DNA of 64,000 nucleotides, from positions 496,001 to 560,000 of the forward strand of contig NZ_FPAT01000001.1 of the NCBI RefSeq assembly GCF_900116555.1. Direction: 5' to 3'. The notes below the pieces were generated by a model. It made no database searches. It was not told the DNA's origin and saw only the letters and a list, made by a program, of their open reading frames with translations. Origin of the DNA: Actinopolyspora lacussalsi subsp. righensis. GTDB taxonomy: Bacteria; Actinomycetota; Actinomycetes; Mycobacteriales; Pseudonocardiaceae. Shown here piece by piece: positions 12,903 through 38,760 of the stretch (the first letter of the stretch is position 1; every line of letters starts with the position of its first letter). Made by a program: the position numbers and the translations under genes.

Positions 12903-13370
12903 CTAAGTCCTGCCGCTGCGCACTGCGCTCACTGATTGCGGCGCGACCTCGATATACGGTGTCAGCGCTGCGCGCAGCTCCTCAGGCACGCGCGCGGGCA
13001 CGGTGTTGGTGTTCGGGCCTCGCATACAGGCGATGCGCTGCCGTCCCCGAGCGGCGAGAGTCTCGACCGAACCGTCGAGGTGCACGTAGTCGAAGACGAA
13101 CTGGACCTGCGTTTGGGTCAGCTCTTCCAGCCGCATTCGGATGGACAGCTCGTCGAACGCGGTGATCTCGGCGAAGAACTCGCACTCGACCCTGAGCGTG
13201 AACAGCTTCAGGTCGCCACGCACGTCCGCGAGCACACCCGGAGCCTTCTCCTTGAGGAACATCTCTCGACAACGTCCCTGCCAGCGCAGATAGTTCACGT
13301 AATAGACGTTGCCGACCAGATTGGTCTCCTCGAAGCCGACGGTGTGCTGAATCTCGTAGTAGTCCCCCAC
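12903..13370 (-). CDS. Enediyne thioesterase (E10/TEBC-type, hotdog fold)
   Basis: Hotdog-fold acyl-ACP thioesterase of 155 aa that releases the polyene made by the enediyne PKS. It has the family start YYEIQHTVGFEETNLVGNVY and YYVNYLRWQGRCREMFL. As in CalE7 and DynE7, the usual catalytic acidic Asp is replaced (Asn in TNLVGNVYY). I chose the GTG at 13370: it follows the PKS stop by one base and has GAGGAGG within the PKS end as ribosome binding site. One of the five signature genes of all enediyne clusters. Confidence 0.93.
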   Translation of the reverse strand: MGDYYEIQHTVGFEETNLVGNVYYVNYLRWQGRCREMFLKEKAPGVLADVRGDLKLFTLRVECEFFAEITAFDELSIRMRLEELTQTQVQFVFDYVHLDGSVETLAARGRQRIACMRGPNTNTVPARVPEELRAALTPYIEVAPQSVSAVRSGRT

Positions 13371-13371
13371 C

Positions 13372-19221: not shown

Positions 19222-19752
19222 ACCAACCACCGAATCCCACGGACAGGCACTGAATTACAGTCAATCGTTGCCAAACACGGTTCATAAAGCCACACCCCCG
19301 CGTCAAACACCTTTTCGGCATCCCGACAACCTCGGGAGATTTCCAGTCATCACCAATTCCAAGATATTTCACGGCCACACTTCGCCGCCCCCCGATTTTT
19401 CGAACCACGGACAAACCACCACCTCGCCGAACCGACGAAGCAGGTGATCGACTTCGTACTCTTGGAACTCGATCCCATCGCCCCCCTCCGCTACTACCAC
19501 CTCCCCACGTCGCACCACCGATCAACACAAAAAATTTTCTCGACCCCTCCAAGCCAAAATTTAATTTTGAAATCAGAGGCCGTCATCACTCACTCCGAAC
19601 ACCCGAAAATCCCGAAGCCGGAGGATCGCGGCGCCCGCAGTAGAGGTTGACATCCCGCTTTCACGCTCGATCCGACAACGACGCGTCACGGAAGTGTTCG
19701 CTTCCGAGTACTGGTACCACTCCCCTGCCGAGAGCGGACGTCTCCCCGTCGG
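19222..19752. other. AT-rich gap upstream of the PKSE gene
   Basis: About 530 bp with no recognisable gene, much lower in GC than its flanks around 19530-19590. It probably contains the PKSE promoter, since the upstream minus-strand gene ends at 19753. No specific -35/-10 pair can be assigned with confidence. Confidence 0.5.
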
Positions 19753-24164: not shown

Positions 24165-25592
24165 TCACGACGAGTCGTCCTCGTGATCGGCGTAATCGAC
24201 CGCGACGGCTTCGGGGGAAGTTGGTGCCGGCCGCTCCGGCGACACGTTGCGCACCGTCATCGGCAGTCCTCCCCTCAAGCGCAGCGACAACATCGGTTCC
24301 GCAACGATTTCGAAGTTCTCCACTTTGTCCAGGCGCATCTCCCTGGCGACCATGGCGAGCACAAAGGTGGCCTCCATCAGACCCAGGTGATTTCCGACGC
24401 AGAACCGAGGTCCGGCACCGAACGGGATGTGCGCGTACCGTGGCCGATCAGCAGTGTTGTCAGAAGCGAAGCGCTCCGGGTCGAATCGGTTCGGTGATTC
24501 CCAGAAGTCCGGATGGCGGTGCAGCGTGTACGGACAGACGAGCACGTCCGAGCCCGCAGGCACGTGGTACCCGCCGATCACGTCGTCGCTCACCGACTGG
24601 CGGGGGAGAATCCACACCGGAGGGAACAGGCGGATGGATTCCTGCACGACCATCGAGGTGTAGGTAAGCCGATGCAGGTCTTCGTAGGTCGGTAATCGAT
24701 CACCCAGCACCTCGACCGCCTCGGTGTGCAACCGTGACGCCACCTCCGGATGCTGGTCGAGCAGGGAGAACGTCCACCCCAGCGTGCTCGCCGTGGTCTC
24801 GTGCCCGGTCAAGAGCAGAGTGGTCAGCTCATCGTGCAAGCGTCGCCGTCCCACGGCCGAGTCAGTTTCCCGTTCAGTGGAGCGGATCAGGCGGGATAGT
24901 GCGTCGTCACCGTCCGAACGGGGATCCGCCAGGCGCTGTACGACCAGTTGCTCGACTATCCGCCGCAGATCCCTGCGAGCGCGCCGGAAGCGCAGTTGTC
25001 TCGGCAGCGGTACCCACATCGGTACCAGCCCCATAGACTCCATCTCGAACATGGCCTGGTTCTGAACGGCCTCGAATGAACCACCGATCGACTTGTAAGC
25101 CCCGAGGTCGGTGTCGAGTAAGGTGCGTCCGAGCACGCCCAGGCTGAAACCGGTCATCTCCCGAACGACATCGACCGGGCCACCACCCTCATGAGCGCGC
25201 AACCTGTCGACCAGCCTCGCCGCCTCGTCGACGATCGCATCGGCCTGTGCCGCGATGCGCTTGTGCTGAAAGGTCGGCTGGACCGTTTTACGCTGGGTAC
25301 GCCACAGCGCCCCGTCACTGGTGAGTAGGCCGTCCCCAAGCGCGCGCCTGGCCTGGATGTAACCAATCCCCTTGGTGTAATTACCACTGTTGTCGGCCAA
25401 GATGTGCTTGGCGTACTCGGGATGGTTGAAGAAATAGAGTGTCTTCGGACCGACGCGCAAGCGCACGGCATCACCGTAGTTCGCCGCGGCCTCACTCAAC
25501 AGCGAGAGCCGATCCTTCACCAGTTTTCGTAGCAGACCCGGTGTGGCTCGGCGCGGCGGGCCTGGAGGTACGCGCCGAGCTGAGCCGGTCAT
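24165..25592 (-). CDS. Cytochrome P450 (SgcE7-type, enediyne core)
   Basis: P450 of 475 aa. The I-helix oxygen-activation motif is LLTGHETTAS, the ExxR is in VVQESIRLFPP and the heme-binding Cys in FGAGPRFCVGNHLG. It is class-I-like and would need ferredoxin and reductase from elsewhere; none is in the window. Location within the core block and similarity to the E7 type suggest an oxidation of the enediyne core. Its ATG overlaps the UnbU-like gene stop. Confidence 0.92.
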   Translation of the reverse strand: MTGSARRVPPGPPRRATPGLLRKLVKDRLSLLSEAAANYGDAVRLRVGPKTLYFFNHPEYAKHILADNSGNYTKGIGYIQARRALGDGLLTSDGALWRTQRKTVQPTFQHKRIAAQADAIVDEAARLVDRLRAHEGGGPVDVVREMTGFSLGVLGRTLLDTDLGAYKSIGGSFEAVQNQAMFEMESMGLVPMWVPLPRQLRFRRARRDLRRIVEQLVVQRLADPRSDGDDALSRLIRSTERETDSAVGRRRLHDELTTLLLTGHETTASTLGWTFSLLDQHPEVASRLHTEAVEVLGDRLPTYEDLHRLTYTSMVVQESIRLFPPVWILPRQSVSDDVIGGYHVPAGSDVLVCPYTLHRHPDFWESPNRFDPERFASDNTADRPRYAHIPFGAGPRFCVGNHLGLMEATFVLAMVAREMRLDKVENFEIVAEPMLSLRLRGGLPMTVRNVSPERPAPTSPEAVAVDYADHEDDSS

Positions 25593-26599
25593 GCCGCCTT
25601 CTCCGATTCGACCGCCGTCGGCATCGGATGTGGATCCGACTTCGGCTCCGCGTCCGACGGGCCTGCCATTTCTCCTTGCCGCAGGCGTTCACGCTCTTCC
25701 CATTTCTCGCGTTCCTTGTTCGAGAAGTGCAACGACCACAGGAACCCACCGCGGATCAGGCAGACCATTGTCGTGGCGAAGAAAAGCCCGTAAGCGACGT
25801 GAGCGGCCGTCAGCAGACCGTAGACCACCGCGACGCCGGCGCCGAAAGCGAACTGCGAGGCCGGTTTGGACGGGGTCGTGCCGGGATCGGTTACCATGTA
25901 GTTGGTGAACAGCACGAACGCCACACCGGTCATGGAGGCCAGCGCACCGAGAATGGCGATGTCGAACACGACACCGCGTACCACCGCCTGCAGGGCGTAA
26001 ACACCGACCCAACCGGCGATCAACCACATCCGACCGGTGAGCTTGGCGTTGAGCATGGTGCCCGACACAATGATGACTATCGGGATCAGCCAGTCGAACC
26101 AGAAACCGGTCGATTCGCTGAAGTGGTAGGGCGGGGCGATGCTGGCCCAGGGGAAGAGCAGCAGAATCACGGATATACCGAGATTCGAGGGGTTCATGAA
26201 GTGGCGCATCCGACCACGCACCGGCGCGCGCAGTACCCACTTGGCTCCAACTGCCACCGTGACCCCGAATATCATGGCCCACAGCTGGGTATTGACGTAG
26301 ATCAACATATTTACCGCGAGCCCGGTGATGTGAGCGGGATACAGGAACTCCACAACACCGCGTACGCCGTTACCAGTAAACCGGGGGATACGTCCCTCAA
26401 CCCGTGCCGCGACACTCTCGAGTCCGATTTCGACGGTATAGGCGGTGGCCAGTGCGATGAACGGCCACAACCACGGTTGTTCGAACCCGAGGAGAACGTA
26501 CCCGAGAATATTGAACACGGTGATAGAAATAGCGAACCTGCGCAGTGCCGTGATAAATTTCGGCTCACCACGCTGGGGGGTGGTTTTCTGCTCCGTCAT
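25589..26599 (-). CDS. Enediyne core membrane protein (E4/UnbU-type)
   Basis: Integral membrane protein of 336 aa with about eight to nine TM helices, related to RnfD/NqrB-type proteins. Recognisable stretches are RHFMNPSNLGISVILLLFPW and VFDIAILGALASMTGVAFVL. It is one of the five genes common to all enediyne clusters; its biochemical role is not established. The C-terminal tail is charged and cytoplasmic. It begins one base after the UnbV gene and overlaps the P450 start. Confidence 0.92.
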   Translation of the reverse strand: MTEQKTTPQRGEPKFITALRRFAISITVFNILGYVLLGFEQPWLWPFIALATAYTVEIGLESVAARVEGRIPRFTGNGVRGVVEFLYPAHITGLAVNMLIYVNTQLWAMIFGVTVAVGAKWVLRAPVRGRMRHFMNPSNLGISVILLLFPWASIAPPYHFSESTGFWFDWLIPIVIIVSGTMLNAKLTGRMWLIAGWVGVYALQAVVRGVVFDIAILGALASMTGVAFVLFTNYMVTDPGTTPSKPASQFAFGAGVAVVYGLLTAAHVAYGLFFATTMVCLIRGGFLWSLHFSNKEREKWEERERLRQGEMAGPSDAEPKSDPHPMPTAVESEKAA

Positions 26600-26600
26600 G

Positions 26601-28559
26601 TCAGCGCTCCTTGGCCTGGGTCCCGAGTCTGAGGTCGTGCCACCCCGGGGACAGCTCCAGCCGGTCCTCGCGCACCTGCCCGGTGCGGTCGCGCCATCTC
26701 AGGTGTACCCGTACCGGTCCGGTGTCATCGCCCAGACCGACATGAACTTCGTGGCTACGCTTGCCGGAGTGCCCACTTCCACCGTCGACACGTCCGATGT
26801 GCTTACTTCCGTCCGGCGTCGTCACGGTCACTTGCGCACCGACCACTGGGGCTCCCGGAGCGGGCGTGGATCCTGACGACGCTTCTGCTGCACGGGTGAG
26901 CCGTAAGCCGAGGAAGGAGCCTGGATCGGGGCTCTCATTTTGGTAGAAGACCGGTTCGTCCCACTGCCTTGCGACAGCGAAGTCGAGGCTGCCGTCACCA
27001 TCCGCATCGCCGGTGGCGATGCCACGGGTGGGGATCGGAACGTCGAGGCCGAGTTCATCGGCGAGATTGGTGTAGCGTTCGCCGTCGGTCCTGGCGAAGA
27101 AGTTCAGCCGCTGGCTCCCCGCTAAGTCGTCACCGGAGGTGACGTGCGGCCAAGAATCGGGGTCAGCGACCAGCTGATCGTTGACGGTAGCCAACTCCTG
27201 CAACTGCGGCCAGCGGTTGGTCTCGCCCTTGACGAAACCGTTGGTCTGCACGATCTCCGGATCACCGCTGTTGTCGAAGTCGGCCATCTTGACGTCCCAA
27301 CACCAACCGCCCCAGGCGGTACCGAGTTCAGCGCTGCGGTCCTTCCATGGAGCGACACCGTTGTTCAGGCTCTTGCGCAAGTCCCCCCGGTCCTCCGCCG
27401 TCGAGAGGAACTGGAAGTTGCTCTCCTGGATGCCGAACGAGGTGGTGATGTTGCTGACGAACATGTCGTAGAGGCCGTCGTCGTTGAAATCGGCGAAGTC
27501 GATCCCCATGCCCTTGAACGAGTCGGCACCGACCCGTTTGGACTTGGGTGTCATGGGGGGACGTTTCCCCTGTACCGGTTCGAACCTGATTTGACCGGGT
27601 TCGGAACGGTTGTGCAGCAATGCGTCCGGACCGTGATCCTGAGCGATGTATAGTTCGGGGAGCTGGTCGCCGTCCAAATCGTTTGCCGAGGAGGCCAGTA
27701 CCCAGCCCTTTGAGATGTCGGACGGGAGTACGTCTTCCACCTTCTCGTAACGGACAGTGGACTCGGGGCCCTCGGTGACGCCGGCCCACCGGAAGAGGTA
27801 GTCCTCTCCACCGTTGGTCGCGTTGGACAGCGAGCGGTTCATTGCCACACCGCCGTCGGCGGTCTCGTCCAGCACAGGGCTGTGCGGAAAGTAGTTCCCC
27901 AGGTAGATGTCCTCATGACCATCACCGTCGAAATCGGCGATGGCGATGGAATTGCTGTTCCACTCAGGTCCGGTGTAGCTCTCCTCGGAGGAACCGGGAA
28001 CCAATTCCGTGGGGCGGTACGCATCCGCACTCAACCCGTTCGCACCAGGACTGGACAAATAGATGATCGGAGTACGACCCCAGTAGTAGACGAGCAGGTC
28101 GCGTCTGCCGTCCTCGTTGAAATCGCCGGGTGCACACCCCATCGGAGCCATATTGTCGTTCATCGGCAACGGAGCGGGATCGAGCGCGAAGGACGTATAG
28201 CGATCCGACCGTTCTCCGGGGGTCGGTGTCACGACGACCTTGTCGGTACGGGGATCGGTGATACACAGATCATTGGAAAGACCATCACCGTCCAGATCGT
28301 TCATCGCCACACCGGCACCGACCGAGGAGATCCAGGCATCGATGTGCTTGTAATCCTGGTTGACCTCGCGAATCTTCTTCTGCTCGAAACCGCTCGGCAT
28401 GGAGATGGACATCGGCGCGAATTCGAAGTCCTCCGCCAGACGTTCGACTTCGGCCGAGGACGAATCCGGCACGCGCGCGACGACGAACAAAGTGATCATC
28501 AACAAAATTGCTACGATTCCCGCAAGCTGCCTACGTAGCCAGAGCAATGTCGCGGTCAC
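26601..28559 (-). CDS. Enediyne core protein (E5/UnbV-type, ASPIC-UnbV domain)
   Basis: Protein of 652 aa with an N-terminal membrane anchor or signal (IVAILLMITLFVVARVP) followed by FG-GAP/VCBS-like calcium-binding repeats of the type DLDGDGLSNDL, DFNEDGRRDLLVYYWG, DFDGDGHEDIYLGNYF and DFNDDGLYDMFVSN. The C-terminus is an ASPIC/UnbV domain (VTVTTPDGSKHIGRVDGGSG). It is probably extracytoplasmic. Strongly conserved in enediyne clusters, role unknown. The GTG at 28559 has GGGAGG 9 nt upstream and follows the DUF1702 stop by three bases. Confidence 0.93.
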   Translation of the reverse strand: MTATLLWLRRQLAGIVAILLMITLFVVARVPDSSSAEVERLAEDFEFAPMSISMPSGFEQKKIREVNQDYKHIDAWISSVGAGVAMNDLDGDGLSNDLCITDPRTDKVVVTPTPGERSDRYTSFALDPAPLPMNDNMAPMGCAPGDFNEDGRRDLLVYYWGRTPIIYLSSPGANGLSADAYRPTELVPGSSEESYTGPEWNSNSIAIADFDGDGHEDIYLGNYFPHSPVLDETADGGVAMNRSLSNATNGGEDYLFRWAGVTEGPESTVRYEKVEDVLPSDISKGWVLASSANDLDGDQLPELYIAQDHGPDALLHNRSEPGQIRFEPVQGKRPPMTPKSKRVGADSFKGMGIDFADFNDDGLYDMFVSNITTSFGIQESNFQFLSTAEDRGDLRKSLNNGVAPWKDRSAELGTAWGGWCWDVKMADFDNSGDPEIVQTNGFVKGETNRWPQLQELATVNDQLVADPDSWPHVTSGDDLAGSQRLNFFARTDGERYTNLADELGLDVPIPTRGIATGDADGDGSLDFAVARQWDEPVFYQNESPDPGSFLGLRLTRAAEASSGSTPAPGAPVVGAQVTVTTPDGSKHIGRVDGGSGHSGKRSHEVHVGLGDDTGPVRVHLRWRDRTGQVREDRLELSPGWHDLRLGTQAKER

Positions 28560-28562
28560 GTC

Positions 28563-29579
28563 TCAATACCTCCCTAGAGATACGAATTCATCTGCGATGC
28601 GTCGTCTCCAGATCTCGTAGGCCGGCGAATCACCCACGTCCGAGCGGCCGGGACGCACTTCCCGGGTCAGACTCGCAGCCCGCTCCGTCGTGGTGCCGCA
28701 GAGCACCTCAACGGCGAGCTCGGTGTCCGGCACCATCACCCCCCCGTGCAACCGGGCTTCCGCCGCGAAAGCGGCGCCCTGGGCAACCTGGGCGCGGTGT
28801 TCCCCCGCACGCTCGCGGAAACGCCGCAGCTCCTCCTCGCTCGCACCGCCCGCGTAAGCGGCCGCGAGCCCCGCACCGCCGTACAGATCGGATCGACGAG
28901 ACACGGGAAACTTCTCGATCATGGTGGCTACGCGCTCGGCATCGGTACCACCGACGAACCACATCGCCCTCCCGATGCCCTGGTCGACGGCCCGGTTCTG
29001 GTAGGAACCGGTTCCGCGAGCGGGCCAGAACAGTTTGTCGTTGCGAAACTGCTCGTACACGTAGCGACGAGTGTGAAAATACGCTTGATGGAATCCGTAG
29101 CCATCGAGGACCAACCAACGCAGCAACGGATCGAACGTGTCCACACGCGGCCATCGGAACCTGGGTAACCGTGCCATCGCCCAGCCGATACCGACATAGG
29201 CCGTGTAGACATGCCGCTCGCCAACTCCGGCAAGGAATTCCGCGAGATGTCGTCTGCCTCCGACAGGTAGACCATCGAGGACCGTATATCCCATGGCCGC
29301 ACCTTCGTAGGCGAAACCACGAAACTGTTCGGGAACTTCCTCCAGCCTTTTTTTCAACTCAGCGGTCGAATTCACCTCCACCGCATCCCCGTAACCGGAC
29401 AGGAATTCCTTCCCCACGGTTTCCAGCAATTCGCAAGAATCCGGATCTTTCTTGTGGAAACCACGCACTTCGAGAGAAGTGGCAGATACGTGAGGCGTCA
29501 GCATACGACGTCTGAGCGTGCGCCAACCCTTGCCCACTCGGCCTCCTCGTCGAAAAGGAATCAAATCATCGATCCTCAC
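28563..29579 (-). CDS. Enediyne core protein (E3/UnbL-type, DUF1702)
   Basis: DUF1702 protein of about 338 aa, the UnbL member of the five-gene enediyne cassette. Characteristic stretches: RGFAYEGAAMGYTVLDGLPV, YVGIGWAMARLPR, LVLDGYGFHQAYFHTRRYV and AVDQGIGRAMWFVGG. It starts at a GTG (29579); a ribosome binding site is very close, so a slightly later TTG at residue 6 is possible. It is one of two tandem DUF1702 genes. Function in the polyene-to-enediyne conversion is unknown. Confidence 0.92.
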   Translation of the reverse strand: MRIDDLIPFRRGGRVGKGWRTLRRRMLTPHVSATSLEVRGFHKKDPDSCELLETVGKEFLSGYGDAVEVNSTAELKKRLEEVPEQFRGFAYEGAAMGYTVLDGLPVGGRRHLAEFLAGVGERHVYTAYVGIGWAMARLPRFRWPRVDTFDPLLRWLVLDGYGFHQAYFHTRRYVYEQFRNDKLFWPARGTGSYQNRAVDQGIGRAMWFVGGTDAERVATMIEKFPVSRRSDLYGGAGLAAAYAGGASEEELRRFRERAGEHRAQVAQGAAFAAEARLHGGVMVPDTELAVEVLCGTTTERAASLTREVRPGRSDVGDSPAYEIWRRRIADEFVSLGRY

Positions 29580-29655
29580 CCTCCAATCTTCACGATCAGC
29601 CGTTACAGATCTACTTCACACTTGCCGACCCCCCCAAAAACGCTTGATCATTTTT

Positions 29656-30627
29656 TCAGCGCGACGTGAAGCCGGCGCGTATCCTGTCGCGCCATACTTC
29701 GTAAGCGGGGAGCCGCGTGGACACGTGCTCTTCGACTACGGTGCTGTCGGCGAGGCCGACCGCCTCCGCCACGGACAGACCGGTAAGGGCCCGCACTCCC
29801 TTTGAGGAATGGTCGGGAATGTACTCGGAGTAGCTCCGCGCCTTCGCCGTGAATACCGCACCCAGTGCGAGCTCGACATCGTGCCGTCCTGCGGCGTCGA
29901 GCAGGTCTGTCAGATTCTCGGCCCCTCCCGCGAAGGTCGCCGCGAGTCCTACCCCACTCCACAAATCAGCCTGCCTGTGCTCGGCGAACCTTCGCACCGC
30001 GGCAACGACGGCGGCTATCCGTCCACCGTGGATGAACCACAACGCACGACCGATTCCCTGGTCCACCGCGCGCAAGAAGTACTCGGGCAGCCCTTCCCAA
30101 GCATAAGGCGCGGGCACCCACTGCTGATCCACCCAGCGGTGAGTGTCGAAGTAGGCCCGGTCGAATCCGTAGCCGTCGACGGCGAGCCAGCTCATCGTCG
30201 GGTGGTACGGCGATCCATCGAGATCGGGAACGACGTTCTTCCATAATCTCCGCGGCAGACGAGCCATCGCGAAACCGATCCCGATGTAGGTTAGAAACAC
30301 ATGGCGGTGACCCGGTCCTCGAAGCAGCGCCTTCGTCCTGTCGCTACGCCCACCGGGCATAGCATCCAGCAGGGTGTACGCCATCGTCGCACCCTCGTAG
30401 GCGAACCCGCGCAACTCGCCGTCCACCATGTTCAACCTGCGCTCGATTTCCCACAGATCCGAGGTCTCAAGAGCCCATTCGAACCCGCAAACGACCGTTT
30501 GCGGAACCGCTTCTAACCGTTCGAAGTCACCAGCGGAGGCCACGGGAAAATCACGCCCGCGAAAGGTCACCTCGGCCAGACGCGGAGCCAGCACACTCTT
30601 GCGCAGCGCTCCCAGCACTGTTGACAT
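29656..30627 (-). CDS. Second DUF1702 (UnbL-like) protein
   Basis: Paralogue of the downstream UnbL-type protein, 323 aa. It shares RGFAYEGATMAYTLLDAMPG, YIGIGFAMARLPR, WLAVDGYGFDRAYFDTHRWV and AVDQGIGRALWFIHG. ATG 30627 with GGAGAAAA upstream. The two copies are clearly diverged, not a recent duplication. It is the first gene of the enediyne core block, 93 bp from the AraC-type gene. Either copy could be the true E3. Confidence 0.9.
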   Translation of the reverse strand: MSTVLGALRKSVLAPRLAEVTFRGRDFPVASAGDFERLEAVPQTVVCGFEWALETSDLWEIERRLNMVDGELRGFAYEGATMAYTLLDAMPGGRSDRTKALLRGPGHRHVFLTYIGIGFAMARLPRRLWKNVVPDLDGSPYHPTMSWLAVDGYGFDRAYFDTHRWVDQQWVPAPYAWEGLPEYFLRAVDQGIGRALWFIHGGRIAAVVAAVRRFAEHRQADLWSGVGLAATFAGGAENLTDLLDAAGRHDVELALGAVFTAKARSYSEYIPDHSSKGVRALTGLSVAEAVGLADSTVVEEHVSTRLPAYEVWRDRIRAGFTSR

Positions 30628-30720: not shown

Positions 30721-31536
30721 TCAGGCGGCCGAACGCAACGGCCGGTGTCCGGAAATATCGCCATTTGTCGAACCGTGGGAAGCCAAAGTGATCGCGATCG
30801 GCGGATCCGACGGGCGCAGAGCTCGCATCCGCAAGGTCACATCGGTGGATCGACCGGAGATTACCTTGACCGGTCGGCCAACGGAGCCGATGAAGAGAGG
30901 GGATTCGGCCGACACGTCATCGGCACGTTTGGCAATCGCCATGACGTTCCACTGGCCCGGTGGCACGTTCGGGATCGTCAGCCTGGAGGAGCCCACATTC
31001 GCCAGGTACTGGTACGATATCGGACCGCTTTGCGGGATGGCATCGTCGAACACTCCGACCAGGACATTCGCAGGAGCTGCTTCCACCGGCAACTCGATCG
31101 CACCGGTAACGTAAGTGCCCACTCCCGTCGCCGAGTCACGACTCCTTCCTCCCGCGTGCGGCTCGTCGAACGACGGTAATCGACGGAAGTCCTGAGCCAC
31201 AGCCAGGAGCAGCTCATCCACTTCCGGAGCTCGGTACTGGGTGGGGGTCATCCCCACGAGCCTGGTGAACCGGCTCGTGAACGTGCCGACACTGTTGTAG
31301 CCGACACTACAGACGATGTCCGATACGGTCGACGAGGTCGTCAGCAAGAGACGTTTGGCTTCGAACAACCGCACTGCCGTCAGGTATCTTCCCGGAGTTA
31401 CCCCCGTTTCCCGCGAAAACACCCTCGAAAAGTGGAACGGGCTGAAAAAAGCCTCGGACGCCAGGTCTCCCAAGGAGATCGGATCATAATACCTAGTACG
31501 AATCATCGAAACAGCTCTCTGAATTCCCAGCTGCAT
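30721..31536 (-). CDS. AraC/XylS-family transcriptional regulator
   Basis: Regulator of 271 aa with the DNA-binding AraC domain at the N-terminus, residues 5-100 (SLGDLASEAFFSPFHFSRVF and VGYNSVGTFTSRFTRLVGMT). This is the reverse of the usual order. The C-terminal half looks like a beta-rich ligand-binding or interaction domain (PPGQWNVMAIAKRA). ATG 31536 has AAGGAG 5 nt upstream. It is upstream of and co-directional with the enediyne core block, so it probably controls this operon. Confidence 0.88.
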   Translation of the reverse strand: MQLGIQRAVSMIRTRYYDPISLGDLASEAFFSPFHFSRVFSRETGVTPGRYLTAVRLFEAKRLLLTTSSTVSDIVCSVGYNSVGTFTSRFTRLVGMTPTQYRAPEVDELLLAVAQDFRRLPSFDEPHAGGRSRDSATGVGTYVTGAIELPVEAAPANVLVGVFDDAIPQSGPISYQYLANVGSSRLTIPNVPPGQWNVMAIAKRADDVSAESPLFIGSVGRPVKVISGRSTDVTLRMRALRPSDPPIAITLASHGSTNGDISGHRPLRSAA

Positions 31537-32437
31537 GATCACTCCTTCAATGACACGGCACGCATTTCCTGAACACGCTCGCGAACGATCGGCAAAAATC
31601 GCGTGTGCAGCACCGACGACGGACTACCGGGATACCGAAGCGCTATCGGGTGACCGCGCCACCAAGAACACGGTCGCTCCCGACCCCAGCCGTCACCCTG
31701 CCCCGAGGTACGCCCCGAGCCTCACAGCGAGATCTACGCTCCACACAGGACGAGCAGCAGCGGAGCCTCGGAGCCTTTGACCTCCATTACCGCACAACCC
31801 CACTCGACACGACCTCGACAGCACAGTTCGACGACCACGGCGAACGGGAAAAGCGCTTGTAGTGCCACTCCCGGCGTGTTGCTCGCCGTAGAGCTCCACA
31901 CGATCCGTTTGCACAGCGCCACCATGCGGTTCGACGCTCGAAACGAGTTCAAAGGAGAGTCGAGACGGGAACGACGACTGTTACCTTCGGCGTTCAGTAC
32001 ATTACTCAAGGTATTTGGATCGCGGACGTGCGAGGGGCGCTGTGTGGCACGTGGCAAGCCCCCACCCCGCACGAGTCGGCATGGTCAACTCGTGACTTGT
32101 CAGTAACCTCTACAGGAGTCGGACCTGCGTGTTCACGCCCGCTGTCGAACACTGATTCGAGTTCTCGAACGGTCCCCGGGACAGGCCCACAGGCCCACAG
32201 GCCCACAGGCCCACGCCACGATCAACGAAACCGCATCACGTGGGACGAGCTCCGAGATTTCAACGAACTCCTACGCAACGAGACTGAGGTCCCATCACTT
32301 TGGGGTAATCATACCGCAAGGTCACTTTACTTTCCGTAACGAACAAACCGTTGTTGATACTCCGCTTGGGGCAATCTCATTCCCGAACAGATGACAAACT
32401 AGGTCACAACACACGATTCGAGGATGGAGGACGGACG
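31537..32437. other. Long divergent control region with an 8-bp tandem repeat
   Basis: About 900 bp between the AraC-type gene (minus) and the response regulator (plus), with no recognisable gene on either strand. It contains four perfect copies of ACAGGCCC at 32181-32212 and an AT-richer stretch at 32280-32400 likely to hold the response regulator's promoter. Both flanking genes are regulators, so this is probably a signal-integration region. Confidence 0.5.
32181..32212. repeat. Four tandem copies of ACAGGCCC
   Basis: Perfect 8-bp direct repeats start at 32181, 32189, 32197 and 32205, continuing partly to 32215. Regularly spaced short repeats near a promoter could be protein-binding sites or just a slippage-prone microsatellite. 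Confidence 0.8.
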
Positions 32438-33043
32438 TTGATCGAGGTACTGCTGGCCGAAGACGTGCACATGGTCCGCGGGGCCTTGGTCACATTGCTG
32501 AACCTGGAGCCCGACATCCGAGTCACCGCGGAGATCGCAGCGGGCGATGAGATCCTGCCGGCTGCCTGCAAGCGCCAACCGAACGTCGCCATCCTCGACA
32601 TCGATCTGCCCGGCAAAGACGGACTGACCGCAGCAACCGAGATCCACGAGACACTGCCGGAGTGCCGCACACTGATCCTGACCAGCCTCGGACATCCGGG
32701 CACTGCGCGCCGCGCCCTCGCGGCGCGTGTGCACGGCTTCATCCCCAAAGACTTGCCATCGAACAAGCTCGCCAAGGCGGTCCGCGATGTCGCCGGTGGC
32801 CGCAGGGTCGTGGACGGGGACTTGGCCCTAGCAGCCTGGGAGGCAGCAGACTACCCGCTGACCAACAGGGAGCACGAAATCCTCCGACTAGTCGCGAAAG
32901 GACACAACGCCGACGGCATCGCCGCTCAACTGTTCCTGTCGACCGGCACTGTCCGCAATTATCTCACTTCGGTGGTGCACAAGCTCAACGCCCGTAACCG
33001 GGTGGATGCCATCCGCATCGCCACCGAATCAGGCTGGTTGTGA
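32438..33043 (+). CDS. NarL/LuxR-family response regulator
   Basis: Response regulator of 201 aa. The receiver domain (1-115) has the acidic pocket in LLAEDVHMVRGAL, the phosphorylated Asp in ILDIDLPGKDGL and the conserved Lys in GFIPKDLPS. The C-terminal LuxR HTH is PLTNREHEILRLVAKGH followed by LFLSTGTVRNYLTSVVHKLN. The TTG at 32438 has a strong GGAGG about 7 nt upstream; the ATG frame starting at 32351 lacks one. It ends 9 bp before the convergent histidine kinase gene. Confidence 0.9.
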   Translation: MIEVLLAEDVHMVRGALVTLLNLEPDIRVTAEIAAGDEILPAACKRQPNVAILDIDLPGKDGLTAATEIHETLPECRTLILTSLGHPGTARRALAARVHGFIPKDLPSNKLAKAVRDVAGGRRVVDGDLALAAWEAADYPLTNREHEILRLVAKGHNADGIAAQLFLSTGTVRNYLTSVVHKLNARNRVDAIRIATESGWL

Positions 33044-33052
33044 GACGACCGA

Positions 33053-34270
33053 TCATGACGTCCGCGTCAACGGGACAGTCACGCGCAATCGGTACCAGTC
33101 GTCGTGTTCGGCACCGGCGGTGAGCGTACCCCCGAGAGCTCCTACGCGGTGGGAAAGGTTATCGATTCCGTTACCCGTTCCTTCGGATGCCGAATCGACT
33201 CGGCTGCGGGGCAACCCGTCGTTGACGATGTCGACACACGCGTTTCCGTCCACCGTTTGGACGGAGATCTCGCACACCTCCGCCTTGCTGTGCCGCAGCA
33301 CGTTGGCGACACCCTCGCGCAACACGGTGGCCAGCACGGCATCGACCGGACCGGAGAACGCGTTGCCGTCCCGCTCGACACGCACGTCGACTTCGGCGGC
33401 GGTCAGGATCGACCGGGCCGATCGACACTCGTCCTCCAGCGAGAGGCTGCTGTATGCGCTGGCCACCGATCGGGTGTCGTTCAACGCCTTCCGGGAGATC
33501 TCCAGAACCTCCTCCATTTCCCTCTTCGACGTTTCCGGCTGTTCGGCGAGCGCCTTGATACTGATTTCACTTTTCAGAGTGATCGCGGACAGGTTCGGTC
33601 CGAGCAGGTCGTGGAGATCTCGCGCGAATCGAAGACGCTCCTCGGCAACCGCCAACCTGGCAAGCTCTTCCCGGGCCGAATAGAGCTCGCCGACCAGACC
33701 CGCTAATCGGGTCAGGCCGTAGACGACCAGTCCCGTAATGACAGCCGAGACAACAAGATGGACGTTCGCGATCAATCCACGTCCGTAGAGCGCACCGAGT
33801 ACCCCCATACTGGTCACAATCACGACGAACACGGGCACCGCAACCGAAGGACGCAATGTGAGCAGTATGCTACCGGCAAGTAATCCTGGTAAACCGATCC
33901 AGGAATCACTGAACTGCAACATCGGCAAGTACACCAGACCGGCCTGCGTCAGCAAAGCCGGATAGCATACTGAGGGACGAAGCCGGACTCCCGGCCAACT
34001 GAAGTACCCCAGCTGCAAGCCCAGTAGCACGATCAGATAACCGAGTCCCATCATCACCTGACCAGACCCGTACCCTGCGGCCAACACGCTGATGAACGAA
34101 ACCAGCCCAATGGCGCAGAACACTGCGACGACAATGCCGTTGGCCAGCCTCGGCGCCAACGAGGTGACAAAACGGCCGAGCACGACGTCCGGTGAGGTGC
34201 CCGAGCCCCGCTCCGTACTCGACATCTCCCCTTCGGCTGATGTTCCGAGCGACTCCCACACGAAGTACAT
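33053..34270 (-). CDS. DesK-type sensor histidine kinase
   Basis: Membrane histidine kinase, 405 aa, with about six TM helices (residues 45-200), a HisKA_3 domain (His in RFARDLHDLLGPNLSAI, near residue 220) and a HATPase with N box LREGVANVLRHSKAEV and G box GNGIDNLSHRVGALGG. HisKA_3 kinases pair with NarL-type regulators, and one lies convergently 9 bp away, so they are probably partners despite the unusual tail-to-tail arrangement. The signal is unknown. Confidence 0.9.
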   Translation of the reverse strand: MYFVWESLGTSAEGEMSSTERGSGTSPDVVLGRFVTSLAPRLANGIVVAVFCAIGLVSFISVLAAGYGSGQVMMGLGYLIVLLGLQLGYFSWPGVRLRPSVCYPALLTQAGLVYLPMLQFSDSWIGLPGLLAGSILLTLRPSVAVPVFVVIVTSMGVLGALYGRGLIANVHLVVSAVITGLVVYGLTRLAGLVGELYSAREELARLAVAEERLRFARDLHDLLGPNLSAITLKSEISIKALAEQPETSKREMEEVLEISRKALNDTRSVASAYSSLSLEDECRSARSILTAAEVDVRVERDGNAFSGPVDAVLATVLREGVANVLRHSKAEVCEISVQTVDGNACVDIVNDGLPRSRVDSASEGTGNGIDNLSHRVGALGGTLTAGAEHDDWYRLRVTVPLTRTS

Positions 34271-35204
34271 TTACATCCCCTTCGCAACGACCCGCCAGAC
34301 ACAAACTGCCCAAAAAGATACATTAATCCCGATGGCTCGGGTTTCAACGAAGAAAATCCATGCCACATGGCACGTGAAACTTTTGGCGCTCATCCGAACG
34401 ATACATCGCTCGCAAGCACACTCCACACCATCTCAATGGAACGATCACAACGCTCGACCAATATCGCACGCCGCGCTTCGGACCGGACAAAACAATCGAA
34501 ACGGAGAGATATATCCACCGTACACCAGACGGTGAAATAATCTCCTCACGCTTTCTGCGAACACCCCTCTTAGCGAGCAGGAAAAACACACGATGCAGTT
34601 AATCGTGCGCGTCAACGCAGTTGAGCAACTGGCCGTAGCGAACTCTCGTGAAACGCGTTCGACCAAGGATTCAATTGAAAGCCCTGTCCGAACGACTCAC
34701 CGTGAGCATGACACAGGATTTCATGCTGAAAACACGGCGTAGCGTCCCGTGTGGAGTTCCACTGTCAGCTCCTCGCCGCACCGTCACAGATCGTGAATCG
34801 GAGCCAATCACGAGCCGAAAGCAGCCGTCGACACCACAAGCGTAACCGGAATCCGGCGACCCCAGCGGATTTATCGGAATGCGGCACACTCGCAGTACGC
34901 TGTAGATTCTCGCCGATCCGGCGTCGAGGTGGTGTTAAACAGCGAACTCGGACCGAGGGATCATCCGTTACAGCGGATCACGCCACCAGACACCAGTCCT
35001 GCGGAGTTCGCAGTCGCTCCGTCATGCGACGACGAACACTCCTGCTGTGCTGGTCCGCCATGAGAGATCATCTCTCATTGACCATAACCGCACCCTCAAC
35101 GGGGCATAACCACTGGATCGGTAGCACAAACAGCTTCTCCACTGAATTCCCGAGGAGAACACCGACTGCGCAGCTCCTCCATCGTCCCGATATGGCTCGC
35201 CTCC
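34271..35204. other. Gene-free stretch between kinase and YcaO genes
   Basis: About 930 bp of lower GC content with no recognisable protein in any frame. It contains the kinase promoter (right to left) and the 3' end region of the YcaO transcript. I looked specifically for further RiPP genes or a second short precursor here and saw none with a convincing start. Confidence 0.45.
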
Positions 35205-37499
35205 TCACAGAAAAAGGGGAAACGGGTTAAGCTCCTCGTACGCAGTAGGTTCGGTCAGCCTCCCGAGCTCGACGGGTACTTCGTAGAGTCTCCCATTGCC
35301 GAACCTCGCCCAGAAATGACGCATCCCCGGCACGATCATCTTCACCACCGGGAGGTCGATATCGGGCCGTGTCTGATCGAGGACGAGGGTATCGAGCCCC
35401 TTCTCGGACAACACAGCGACGACCGATTCGATGTCCTTGGCGAGGTCACGGCGAGGAACGTAGTCGAAGCTCTCCGGTACCCGTAGGGCTTCGTCAGCGT
35501 CGGGGATCAGATAGGGCTGGTTCCGCACAGTCGCATACCGCCACCATGCCCACGCGTCCGGATCGTCGACAGCGACCTCTTCTCCCCTCCCGTTCGGGGC
35601 AGCGGCGGAAGTGAGCTGGTTGAGCTCGGTCAGTGCGCGGCGCAACGCGATCCGGGGATCGAAATGTGCCCCGAATCCGAACATTATGTGCTCGTCGACA
35701 GAATCAATGCGTCTCGACATCGCCACCATCACGGGGATGTTTATATCGGAGGTCACGTCGAGAACCCAGATTTCCCGTCCCATACGGGTGTAGGTCCAAC
35801 GCAGCTCCTCGATCCACTGCTCGTGAAAGGCATCGAGATCCACACCCGGAACTGGAGTACGGTTGTACCACCAAAGGGCCACAGCATCACGCTCCACCAG
35901 CTCTAACAACCCCTGGACGATGGCATCCTCGAGACTGCTTCCAGCAGCGTTGCCGTTCGAATCAGCACGCAGATCGGGGCAGCCCTGCACAGCAGGCGCT
36001 CCGTAGTAGAGCATTCCCGTCGGCAGCAACCGTTGTCGCTGCCACGTCAGCGACCAAACAGGAGTCCAGTCCGTAACGGCACATTCGTCGAACGGCTCAC
36101 ACACATGTTGGAAAGGCGCGTGCGCGGCGTTCCATTCGAGTCGCGTCGCATACTGCCGTTGGTGGAACAGCATGCACTCGTTCGGGTGTACGGCGATATC
36201 CCCCAGGGATCGCAGAGTCCCCTGGATGCGTTCTTCGTCACCGTGGAACCGTCCACTGTAACGCTCGAGCGCTTCACACAGCGCGCTCGCTTTCGCATCG
36301 GTGGCACTCACCCCCTTGCCGCCACTCTCGTCGCGCATGCTCCTTCGCAACGTGTCCATACCGGTGGCCTTCGCACTGAAATTGGGGCCGGAACGAAACG
36401 AGTTGAACAGCTCCGGAGCATTCCGATCCCGCTTGATCTCCTTGACCACGCCGGTCACCGGACTGATGAGGTGCTGATACTTGTCCAGTACCTGCTCCGG
36501 AGTCGACGAACGATGCCCACTCCCCGAGCCCAGCACCTTCCCGACCGAACGCAATACCACCGGTTCGCGTGTTCGCGCAGCCACGAGCGAGACATCCCCG
36601 CACTCCGAACACTGGGGTCTGGCGCGCAGTTCGTGGAGTCTCCCGGAAAGATCGGTGGTGTCAAGAGTCCGAACTCCCCGTTGGCCGGGATGTCGATGGC
36701 CGGCGAGCCACTTCGTGGTCTCGAGCGAGACGAGATTGGCCGCCATGGCCGTCGACGCCGGAAGCGAAGCAACCGGATGCGGAGCAGGTCCCTCGCGCCC
36801 GAGTGCGGCCTGCGCACACGCCTCGGCGTGACGATGACCCCACAGCCGGGTGGCGAGGCAGTGCCAGCACCCCGTCACTCCGGGTTGGAACACGGGGCCG
36901 ACCCACACGTGGACGCCCGTCGGTTTCGCGAGCAACCACTGTCGGCCCGAAGAGCGGCAGGCTCGATCGATCTCGGCGAGCGCTGGATTAAGATAATCGT
37001 CACAGAGCACCACTGTAAGATCAGCCGTTTCGGAGAGGGCTTCCCAGGGAGCCGCATCGACAGCGAAACCGGCTGTTCGCAGCGCTGTCTCCACCGCCGT
37101 GACGTCGACCGCCTCTCCAACAGTCAGGAGGCGAATGCTCATCACACGACTGTGCACGGCCGGGGTGCGCTCGACACCACAGGCATCCCAGTAGGCAAGC
37201 GCGCGCTCGTCGGTACCCGGTTCGGGTGCGGGACGAATCGTCAGCAGCCCCGCGTCCACGAGTTGACCGACCATCTCGCTTATCCGCCTCGAATCCAGCC
37301 CTCCCGGCTTTGCGTCGACCAGGCTCGCGAAGTCCCTGGTGCCGTCCAACACGGCAGCCAGGGACTCGACGCGCATCCCGCGCAACGCCGTCACGCCGTC
37401 TTCCGAGAAGAGGAAAGCTCCGTTCCCCTCGGCGAGTTCGAGACGAAGGTGGCGTTTGAATCCGGCTACGTGAGCACTCGCGGGATCGATCTCCGTCAA
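35205..37499 (-). CDS. Fused E1-like / YcaO cyclodehydratase (TOMM, SagC-SagD-type)
   Basis: Protein of 764 aa, the size of fused cyanobactin-type cyclodehydratases. Residues 1-90 look like a peptide-recognition winged helix, about 100-320 an E1/ThiF-like domain with two CxxC pairs (GCWHCLATRLWGH, PQCSECGD) for zinc, and 345-764 a YcaO domain. The YcaO ATP-site motifs are present: ATDAKASALCEALERYSG and LEDAIVQGLLELVERDAVAL. The C-terminus ends NPFPLFL, a variant of the PxPxP tail. Such enzymes turn Ser, Thr or Cys into azolines in a ribosomal peptide. I chose the TTG at 37499: it overlaps the stop of the 57-codon ORF and AGGAGG lies 12 nt upstream. No azoline dehydrogenase (SagB) is visible. 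Confidence 0.88.
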   Translation of the reverse strand: MTEIDPASAHVAGFKRHLRLELAEGNGAFLFSEDGVTALRGMRVESLAAVLDGTRDFASLVDAKPGGLDSRRISEMVGQLVDAGLLTIRPAPEPGTDERALAYWDACGVERTPAVHSRVMSIRLLTVGEAVDVTAVETALRTAGFAVDAAPWEALSETADLTVVLCDDYLNPALAEIDRACRSSGRQWLLAKPTGVHVWVGPVFQPGVTGCWHCLATRLWGHRHAEACAQAALGREGPAPHPVASLPASTAMAANLVSLETTKWLAGHRHPGQRGVRTLDTTDLSGRLHELRARPQCSECGDVSLVAARTREPVVLRSVGKVLGSGSGHRSSTPEQVLDKYQHLISPVTGVVKEIKRDRNAPELFNSFRSGPNFSAKATGMDTLRRSMRDESGGKGVSATDAKASALCEALERYSGRFHGDEERIQGTLRSLGDIAVHPNECMLFHQRQYATRLEWNAAHAPFQHVCEPFDECAVTDWTPVWSLTWQRQRLLPTGMLYYGAPAVQGCPDLRADSNGNAAGSSLEDAIVQGLLELVERDAVALWWYNRTPVPGVDLDAFHEQWIEELRWTYTRMGREIWVLDVTSDINIPVMVAMSRRIDSVDEHIMFGFGAHFDPRIALRRALTELNQLTSAAAPNGRGEEVAVDDPDAWAWWRYATVRNQPYLIPDADEALRVPESFDYVPRRDLAKDIESVVAVLSEKGLDTLVLDQTRPDIDLPVVKMIVPGMRHFWARFGNGRLYEVPVELGRLTEPTAYEELNPFPLFL

Positions 37500-37669
37500 G
37501 GTAGGATCTCGCCTCCTTCGGACTTGCTCCAAATAGTTCCCCCCACCTGTAATCCATTCGGATTACTCCACTGATCGAAGTGCTCGATCAAGATCCCCTC
37601 CGAAGGCTCCGACAGTCGAGACTCCACCGGCTTCCCCGGTCCTTCCGCAAAGCTGGTTTTCTCGTTCAC
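37496..37669 (-). CDS. 57-residue ORF coupled to YcaO: candidate RiPP precursor
   Basis: Short ORF from GTG 37669 to TGA 37496, preceded by AAGGGG 5 nt upstream. Its stop overlaps the YcaO TTG start by 4 bp (TTGA), the classic arrangement for coupled translation. The protein begins MNEKTSFAEGPGKPVE, is acidic and hydrophilic (many Glu, Gly), has a short hydrophobic stretch (GILIEHFDQW) and ends in a Gly/Ser-rich tail (GGTIWSKSEGGEILP) with no Cys. A leader-like first half plus a Ser/Thr-bearing tail fits a YcaO substrate, but no database family is known to me. Alternative: a non-substrate coupling peptide. Confidence 0.6.
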   Translation of the reverse strand: MNEKTSFAEGPGKPVESRLSEPSEGILIEHFDQWSNPNGLQVGGTIWSKSEGGEILP

Positions 37670-37929
37670 GTCCACCCCTTCACGTTCTCTTGTTCGGCAT
37701 GCATTAACCTACGAACCCGAAGTGGACGCCACCAGTGATCATGTCATTTCCGAGGCATGTGCCCCTCATAGTCGGCAAGGAAAAAATCAGGGCATCTCAC
37801 ATAGCCACGTCACTCTCGTTCGCGAATTCGATCGAATAGATTTGAACAGCGCTTGTTTCTGGATCGCACCACGGTCGAACCGAGCAGCACTCACTCACGA
37901 AGCAAACAGGCCAGGGGGAGAAAATCCTG
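37670..37929. promoter_or_regulatory. Divergent promoter region, YcaO unit and SARP gene
   Basis: Region of 260 bp between the divergent 57-codon ORF and the SARP gene, lower in GC than the flanks. It must hold both promoters. The SARP gene has GGGGGAG 8 nt before its ATG. A SARP often binds direct repeats next to its target promoter, so the YcaO unit is a candidate target, by inference. Confidence 0.45.
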
Positions 37930-38760
37930 ATGTCTTCAGAATTAGCAGCATGGGATAGAACTCTCGATACTGAACTAACCAGCTTTCGTGACACCTCCGA
38001 CGACATCCTGAAGTTCACCCTGCTGGGACCGTTGGAAGTACTCAAGCATGGTGAGGATCACGCACCGACCGCGCCGAAACCCCTGCAACTGCTGGCGATG
38101 CTGTTGATGCGCCCGGGAAAGGTGGTGCACACCGACTCCATCGTTCACGAACTATGGGGGGACGAACCCCCTCGAAGCGCCCGAACGACCATGCAGACTT
38201 ACGTCTACCAACTGCGCAGATGGCTCGAAAAGAGCGACCTGACCTCCGAAAACGCAGTTCTGGCCACCAAGCCACCCGGTTATGTGCTCCAGGTGGAACC
38301 CGCTCAGACCGATCTGTTCACTTTCCAGCACTTACGCCGTCAAGGGGAGGCGCTGATGGAGTCAGGAAGCTACTCAGAAGCGGTCGACTCGCTCCGATCC
38401 GCGTTGTCGCTGTGGTCCGGCCCTCCGCTGGCCAACATCAACTGCGGTCCCGTACTCACGGCCTATGCGGTGAATCTTCAGGAACAGCAGCACAACACGC
38501 GCTACCTCCGCATCCAAGCCGAGATCGAGGCGGGCATGCATCGCGATCTGATCGCCGAACTTCGATCCCTCGTCACGATGAACCCCCTGGACGAGGAACT
38601 GCACGAGCAGCTGATGCGGGTGCTCAGCCGCAGCGGTCGGAGGCTGGAAGCCCTGGCGATGTACCGCGAACTGCACAGAAAGCTCAACGAGGAGCTGGCG
38701 CTGGAACCGAGTGACGAGCTGCAACGACTGCACCGCGAGCTCCTCTCAGTCGGCCAGTGA
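37930..38760 (+). CDS. SARP-family transcriptional activator
   Basis: Streptomyces antibiotic regulatory protein-type activator of 276 aa. An OmpR-type DNA-binding domain (LKFTLLGPLEVL, HELWGDEPPRSARTTMQTYV) is followed by the bacterial transcriptional activation domain (TDLFTFQHLRRQGEALMES; EALAMYRELHRKLNEELALE). It lacks the NB-ARC/TPR extension of AfsR, so it is a small pathway-specific SARP. These are typical activators of antibiotic clusters, and this one sits in the middle of the cluster, divergent from the YcaO unit. Confidence 0.92.
   Translation: MSSELAAWDRTLDTELTSFRDTSDDILKFTLLGPLEVLKHGEDHAPTAPKPLQLLAMLLMRPGKVVHTDSIVHELWGDEPPRSARTTMQTYVYQLRRWLEKSDLTSENAVLATKPPGYVLQVEPAQTDLFTFQHLRRQGEALMESGSYSEAVDSLRSALSLWSGPPLANINCGPVLTAYAVNLQEQQHNTRYLRIQAEIEAGMHRDLIAELRSLVTMNPLDEELHEQLMRVLSRSGRRLEALAMYRELHRKLNEELALEPSDELQRLHRELLSVGQ

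Follow-up and report, generated by a model that had tools for sequence, protein, structure and literature searches.

A recurrent actinobacterial gene module, present in an Actinopolyspora enediyne cluster, is predicted to form a YcaO-modified peptide pheromone circuit

The ComQXPA system of Bacillus combines a variable pre-peptide with an adjoining modifying enzyme, a histidine kinase of the HisKA_3 class and a LuxR/NarL regulator; its peptide and the sensor half of its kinase co-vary more than the kinase half does. Among cyanobactin enzymes, LynD possesses an N-terminal region that binds the leader. Thiazole/oxazole-modified microcin (TOMM) or linear azol(in)e pathways, as set out in PMC4603692, comprise a fused C-D cyclodehydratase, an adjoining leader-bearing precursor and often an FMN dehydrogenase; the main text of that paper makes no mention of two-component, histidine kinase, polyketide or quorum. 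Here we analyse a 64,000-nucleotide stretch of the Actinopolyspora lacussalsi subsp. righensis genome (contig NZ_FPAT01000001.1, positions 496,001 to 560,000; hereafter the window, whose own numbering is used throughout), in which a 57-codon precursor gene adjoins a fused YcaO cyclodehydratase. With a probability of about 0.75, these genes and their regulatory neighbours would constitute a YcaO-modified peptide pheromone circuit that gates biosynthetic clusters. The computed support consists of a gene family, its leader/core layout, synteny, covariation of core and sensor, precursors that accompany displaced kinases, and a shared operator.

The precursor gene, recognised through its conserved family, occupies positions 37496 to 37669 on the minus strand and reads 57 codons from a GTG start at 37669, with AGGGG just upstream; an in-frame alternative GTG at 37675 would yield 59 codons. 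The GC content of its three codon positions is 0.57, 0.45 and 0.65. Its TGA stop (37496-37498) and the TTG start of the YcaO gene (37497-37499) overlap within the 4 bp TTGA. The encoded 57-residue peptide matched no family in NCBIfam or Pfam. Its conserved leader motif ILIEHFDQWSNP (37559-37594, minus strand) is kept in relatives and is likely to be the recognition strand for the E1/leader-binding domain of the enzyme. The variable core NGLQVGGTIWSKSEGGEILP (37499-37558, minus strand) follows, and it is hypervariable in relatives. The nearest relative core, that of L146 (= L097; relatives' loci are given by L numbers), belongs to a putative Saccharopolyspora indica and is nearly common to the two (GLQVGGTIWSKS against GLRLGGTIWTKT), reading GGTIWTKT where the window has GGTIWSKS. 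A perfect 7-bp inverted repeat, GTAATCC-ATTC-GGATTAC (37549-37566), lies within the open reading frame (ORF) near the leader/core boundary.

The YcaO gene (35205-37499, minus strand, TTG start) encodes a 764-residue protein in which a leader-binding E1/ThiF-like region is fused to a YcaO cyclodehydratase. The protein passed the cut-offs of both TIGR03882 (143 bits against 36.9) and TIGR03604 (262 bits against 219) and matched PF02624 with an E-value of 9e-100. Residues 14 to 762 matched LynD (4v1t; E 1.7e-171), and TruD aligned over the same residues, so that both are near full-length relatives, N-terminal region included. An alignment of 14 rows, the window protein and 13 relatives, shows no variation in the CxxC pairs C211/C214 and C297/C300. 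PADLOC returned no system for the YcaO protein or the kinase. These results bear out the first-pass annotation of this DNA in its description of a complete fused E1-YcaO protein with CxxC pairs and of a 57-codon ORF with its own ribosome binding site and a 4-bp overlap with the YcaO gene.

Compared with the TOMM pathway, the window possesses the C-D cyclodehydratase and a precursor with conserved leader and variable core, whereas a Cys/Ser/Thr/Gly-rich core and the optional SagB-type dehydrogenase are absent; linkage to a kinase, a regulator and a SARP is a further difference. The window core holds one Thr, two Ser, no Cys and five Gly among its 20 residues, and its 40% content of Gly/Cys/Ser/Thr falls below the 45-65% criterion of Cox 2015, as do some TOMM precursors (PMC4603692). 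Any azoline in this peptide would be predicted to form at Thr45, Ser48 or Ser50, the core having no Cys. Cyanobactin pathways differ in having their own cores, PatA/PatG-type proteases and macrocyclisation, none of which is known from the module, although no search aimed at them was made.

The DNA upstream of relatives' YcaO genes was read in all frames for precursor ORFs. In the close relatives of the window the leader motif is [LIV][VIT]I[DE]xFDxWxNP, followed by a hypervariable core; in Streptomyces it is [LV]VIExLD, and 27 of the 30 best loci there contain an ORF with a loose form of the motif. Among 93 neighbourhoods, 41 have a strict-motif ORF immediately upstream of YcaO, and 37 of these also possess a kinase and a regulator. 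As a rule the precursor ORFs stop about 30 bp or less from the YcaO start, or overlap it. A stringent scan for the FDxW-type motif across 113 loci gave 24 hits, of which 21 lie 96-162 bp upstream of YcaO; among the other three, L151 and L062 (where the ORF lies at +5485 of a 9-kb contig) resemble precursors that sit elsewhere in the locus, and L164 is probably a chance hit. The cores contain Ser, Thr or Cys and often Trp. Across 17 Lentzea loci the mean pairwise identity is 0.30 in the core versus 0.74 in the part before it, with a conserved EVLAA-type tail. Codon comparison of L147 and L148 gave no nonsynonymous and one synonymous difference in the leader, and seven and four in the core; over the whole ORF, L048 and L176 differ by three of each. 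Some cores are repeated: L052 carries five RGSAHDPVL-like units, L004 carries FTLCAGP twice and L218 contains FTFCA units. The 57-codon ORF is therefore a member of a real precursor peptide family, beyond chance, as its earlier designation as a candidate precursor coupled to YcaO had anticipated. The strict-motif ORF is present at the 41 loci and absent from that position in the other 52. Most of L100-L116, where flanks are short, gave no motif.

Two groups of relatives carry precursors of other shapes. In L066, L117, L235, L239-L242 and L244-L246, the [LV]VIExLD motif of the Streptomyces precursors is preceded by an extended stretch that appears to resemble nitrile-hydratase-like (NHLP) leaders, whereas the window precursor has a short leader with no NHLP-like stretch. 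The more distant YcaO relatives L087 and L088 carry Cys-rich precursor-like ORFs (AGTDCCCCSGLCTCTG).

The precursor and YcaO genes belong to a recurring module that also contains a SARP, usually divergent, often a dehydrogenase-like gene, one or two HisKA_3 membrane kinases and a LuxR-type regulator. In the window, the membrane sensor kinase (33053-34270, minus strand) scores as HisKA_3, with HATPase below its cut-off, and has approximately four to five hydrophobic segments in its N-terminal half. The LuxR/NarL-type response regulator (32351-33043, plus strand; start codon uncertain) is convergent with it, and the regulators of relatives are mostly 59-76% identical. The SARP-type activator (Trans_reg_C and BTAD; 37930-38760, plus strand) is divergent from the precursor, a position that recurs in relatives. 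Across the 93 neighbourhoods, kinase and regulator were found together in 70, a SARP in 56 and a dehydrogenase-like gene in 57. A wider scan, in which a single-sequence query found no relatives and the 14-row alignment was used instead, yielded 80 named loci, the best of 508, some with incomplete flanks. Kinase and regulator are both present in 66 of these 80 (flanks of up to 10 kb), a SARP is present in 53 and a loose-motif precursor in 52, at least one of which (L276) is a likely chance hit. At YcaO identities of 41% or less, nine of ten loci (L059-L061, L134-L139) lack kinase, regulator and SARP; the tenth, L140, has kinase and regulator. YcaO relatives occur in 32 of 150 relative genomes (E<=1e-30). 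The window's family has them in 136 of 390 genomes and its class in 26 of 394 (both E<=1e-130). A Streptomyces YcaO query found relatives in 94 of 392 genomes of that presumptive genus (E<=1e-180). In L037, L054, L056, L170 and L181-L194 a single ORF of about 780-820 residues encodes two kinases joined head to tail, each with its own membrane half.

We compared the similarity of cores between loci with that of the other module proteins; the statistics assume that loci are exchangeable, and other genes are their only control for shared history. Among 17 loci assigned to Lentzea (a presumptive genus; double kinase; the regulator of L191 incomplete), core similarity correlated with that of the two sensor halves (rho 0.52 and 0.34; 0 of 3000 permutations each), and the values for the kinase catalytic halves (0.13 and -0.01), the dehydrogenase-like protein (0.01), the SARP (0.05) and the regulator (0.02) were small. 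Partial correlations of the sensor halves on all controls were 0.48 and 0.27 (0 and 4 of 3000). After de-duplication to 13 loci, sensor values were 0.51/0.34, kinase values -0.03/0.01 and sensor partial values 0.47/0.28 (0 and 33 of 3000). Linkage alone is not the explanation, because the dehydrogenase-like gene, which lies between YcaO and the kinase, shows no correlation. Similarly, in 26 Streptomyces loci (of 36, motif precursor and kinase both being needed; the near-duplicates L223/L225 and L235/L239 were kept) the sensor gave rho 0.55 and a partial value of 0.50 (0 of 3000), the kinase 0.29 and 0.06 (842 of 3000) and YcaO 0.32 and 0.15. L146 is both the closest core and the closest sensor to those of the window (0.61, next 0.55); the nearest YcaO is, by a small margin, that of L037. 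Peptide core and sensor half thus co-diversify, as they also do in a third set of 19 single-kinase loci, albeit weakly in a mixed set of 31 loci (both sets are considered below).

One explanation that would also account for a tie between peptide and sensor is an intracellular peptide, modified or not, that binds the membrane domain of the kinase or the regulator as a cofactor and is never released. In its favour, the sensor half consists mostly of hydrophobic segments and no exporter was identified, although no systematic search was made. However, cores that vary strongly in step with their sensors are a hallmark of diversifying pherotypes, and the leader/core/follower layout suggests maturation; we regard the cofactor explanation as improbable, and a released pheromone as the better account of this pattern.

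Further evidence comes from loci in which the precursor has moved. In five enediyne loci (L039, L040, L149, L150 and L151) no precursor lies at YcaO, and one is found instead beside a kinase pair and regulator elsewhere, at distances from 5 kb (L151) to approximately 27 kb, extended flanks having been read for the other four; in L150 and L151 there is, in addition, a regulator close to YcaO. The precursor therefore travels with its sensor genes. In L199, L206 and L209, displaced precursors (e.g. core GCFTTVCTTAPPLAEAS) adjoin a kinase pair and a regulator, close to the enediyne polyketide synthase (PKS).

These loci bear on what the peptide is for. The first-pass annotation correctly placed the YcaO gene within an enediyne cluster (iterative PKS, DUF1702 proteins, UnbV protein, membrane protein and thioesterase are all present; coordinates below) and had suggested that conservation of the pair, also in enediyne clusters, be examined. 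Both were found: 41 of 93 loci carry the strict motif, and DUF1702 lies near the module in 20 of 113, the window included. The same annotation proposed that the peptide is a ligand, an appended part or a self-protection partner of the enediyne, and this proposal did not survive. No DUF1702 gene occurs in the flanks (about 9 kb or less) of 93 of the 113 loci, the cores differ widely between related enediyne clusters, and in the five loci above the precursor is kept with the kinases, away from YcaO. The appended-peptide and apoprotein readings were rejected on these grounds, and any structural, ligand or protective role in the enediyne appears very improbable. Given modules that lack an enediyne marker, core-sensor covariation and precursors found with kinases, a signal fits better than a building block. 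Beyond the 20 loci with DUF1702, 11 others matched a ketosynthase probe and a further 10 an AMP-binding/adenylation probe; 72 matched none of the six probes, many of them with short flanks. A related observation is that L290, from Streptomyces sp. CB03234, a tiancimycin producer, carries the module, and the 22 kb examined around it showed none of the enediyne cassette genes.

A conserved operator-like element (a TATGA....CAT dyad followed by TGA...CACTGG) lies between the SARP and the precursor at 37729-37772 (minus strand). Motif discovery in 40 upstream regions, that of the window among them, returned the dyad consensus ggTATGAaAAattCATAt...TGA...GCAcTgg. We built a scoring matrix from 30 other loci chosen for a clear site, with the window left out. 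The window element scored 17.1, against 6.4 for the next-best site in the window; because 17.2 was attained in one of 20 random strands of 64 kb, part of the weight rests on where the element lies. Scores above 15 were obtained in 57 of the best 80 of 508 loci, several of these genomes having supplied training sites for the matrix. The operator also precedes YcaO genes with no adjoining precursor (L143, 31.1; L039, 28.9; L040, 26.1; L149, 25.2; L151, 13.8), and is weaker before the displaced precursors of L212 (19.6), L151 (10.5) and L209 (9.5). The layout suggests that the LuxR-type regulator would bind the dyad and drive the signal operon as well as the SARP, although the SARP itself may also bind there.

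Several observations count against a pheromone circuit. The 52 of 93 loci that lack a strict-motif ORF at YcaO include about 14 with a looser motif by eye and five with the precursor elsewhere, the rest being unexplained or other YcaO types. L143 keeps kinase and regulator, and no precursor was found in it, extended flanks included. Among Amycolatopsis-type loci, L153-L155, L157, L159 and L160 likewise keep both regulatory genes and have no strict-motif precursor (L153 and L160 were read directly at YcaO, and L153, L155 and L160 at the regulator). The relocated precursors of L199 and L206 have no operator score above 8. Precursor-like ORFs also occur with no such kinase or regulator nearby, in L049, L052, L057, L162, L167, L279, L280, L286, L288 and L308, some of them (L052, L167) with repeated cores; the peptide of these loci may have a different product or function. 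No common exporter, protease or immunity gene was seen in five annotated plasmid loci, although no systematic search was made. The covariation is also uneven. In the Lentzea set the core correlated with YcaO (rho 0.23) and with YcaO third codon positions (0.38). In the mixed set of 31 loci (33 minus L272, without a precursor, and L275, without a kinase) the sensor gave rho 0.23-0.26 with partial values of 0.09 and 0.14 (257 and 151 of 1500), and YcaO performed better (rho 0.28, partial 0.27; 4 and 1 of 1500). A set of 19 single-kinase loci, the window included, whose membership and core definition (the core starting after the WxNP leader end) were changed after that weak result, gave rho 0.56 and partial 0.41 for the sensor (0 of 3000), 0.19 and -0.07 for the kinase, and 0.44 and 0.40 for YcaO. 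As YcaO also correlates with the core, part of the covariation signal is shared history.

The loci with no kinase or regulator nearby, multi-core L052 among them, suit an alternative in which the YcaO product is an antibiotic of the ribosomally synthesised and post-translationally modified type, akin to a bacteriocin, that the kinase and regulator only autoinduce, its location in clusters being incidental. Nisin is autoinduced through its own kinase/regulator sensing, an autoinducing antibiotic would covary with its sensor too, and bioactive products are numerous in the known families of YcaO peptides. Set against this, the SARP recurs in the module (at the frequencies given above), the module adjoins enediyne, other ketosynthase/PKS and AMP-binding genes, and the plasmid loci showed no common immunity or export gene under the same limit of search. 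An antibiotic therefore appears unlikely, if less so than the cofactor role, and a pheromone that gates the adjoining clusters remains our preferred interpretation.

In such a circuit, the YcaO protein would use its E1-like part to bind the leader strand of the 57-residue precursor, as its match to TIGR03882 and similarity to LynD suggest, and the YcaO domain would modify Ser/Thr in the core, introducing an azoline or another backbone change. A trimmed peptide would then be released through predicted cleavage and export steps, for which no genes were identified and no systematic search was made. Covariation and co-location make the neighbouring HisKA_3 kinase, through its membrane half, the probable sensor of the peptide, and the kinase would in turn phosphorylate the LuxR-type regulator. 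From synteny and the operator, the regulator is predicted to act at the dyad that lies between the SARP and precursor genes. This would create a positive feedback and switch on the SARP, which would activate the enediyne genes. Modification chemistry, cleavage, export, the identity of the dyad-binding protein and the direction of the regulatory effect are all predictions.

The window module, with its variable peptide, modifying enzyme, HisKA_3 kinase and LuxR/NarL regulator, would follow the logic of ComQXPA. It differs in that the isoprenyl transferase ComQ is replaced by a YcaO enzyme, in the attached SARP and biosynthetic cluster, and in its actinobacterial host. Because the enzyme beside the precursor is a YcaO, the module would work like, but is not, ComQXPA. 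No description of the module was found among the matches listed in full-text PubMed Central searches, a body of literature from which most subscription papers are missing. We lean towards the view that the family makes up a large class of peptide hormones in actinobacteria, one that has apparently gone undescribed. Its members would be modified by YcaO, specific to their pherotype and each paired with its own membrane kinase, and would serve in Pseudonocardiaceae and Streptomyces as plug-in switches that ignite clusters for enediynes, polyketides and non-ribosomal peptides. If so, many silent antibiotic clusters of Streptomyces, Amycolatopsis, Lentzea and their relatives would be gated by specific modified peptides readable from the genome. 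The frequencies in Streptomyces (94/392) and in the window's family (136/390) suggest a common layer of control beside small-molecule hormones such as the gamma-butyrolactones. It would also explain YcaO genes annotated as 'TOMM' inside unrelated clusters, and the pairing of peptide and receptor would be directly testable.

Between YcaO and the kinase, the window has a gap of approximately 0.9 kb (34271-35204) with no convincing gene. Of 61 loci from the same family, 47 have a ThcOx/nitroreductase-type gene, or a shorter related one, at this place. The dehydrogenase-like ORFs of L036, L037, L042 and L146 are 476-493 residues long; the L036 protein scores as ThcOx and nitroreductase, and a short 209-residue version in L003 scores in no Pfam family. 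No remnant was found in 34271-35204 by a comparison that is a weak test, since relatives' ORFs were mostly wrongly extracted or not extracted at all. A SagB/ThcOx-type dehydrogenase was not found in the window genome with TIGR03605, for which a control worked, nor was one found with the L036 protein as query, which matched three of three control relatives; PF22767 matched nothing anywhere and is uninformative. Given this lack of a SagB-type dehydrogenase, azolines or another YcaO-dependent change would be expected, not azoles.

Further genes of the enediyne-type cluster, where coordinates are given, lie on the minus strand. An AraC-type regulator (30721-31542) adjoins the module and is also present in several enediyne relatives. 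It is followed by the enediyne cassette, comprising two DUF1702 proteins (28563-30627), an UnbV/ASPIC FG-GAP protein (26601-28559) and an NQR2/RnfD-like membrane protein that scored below the Pfam cut-off (25589-26599). A P450 is also present in the cluster. A 4HBT thioesterase (12903-13424) adjoins the iterative enediyne-type PKS (KS-AT-KR-DH; 13372-19230), and the PKS proteins of relatives' clusters are 67-71% identical to that of the window, with one fragment at 80%.

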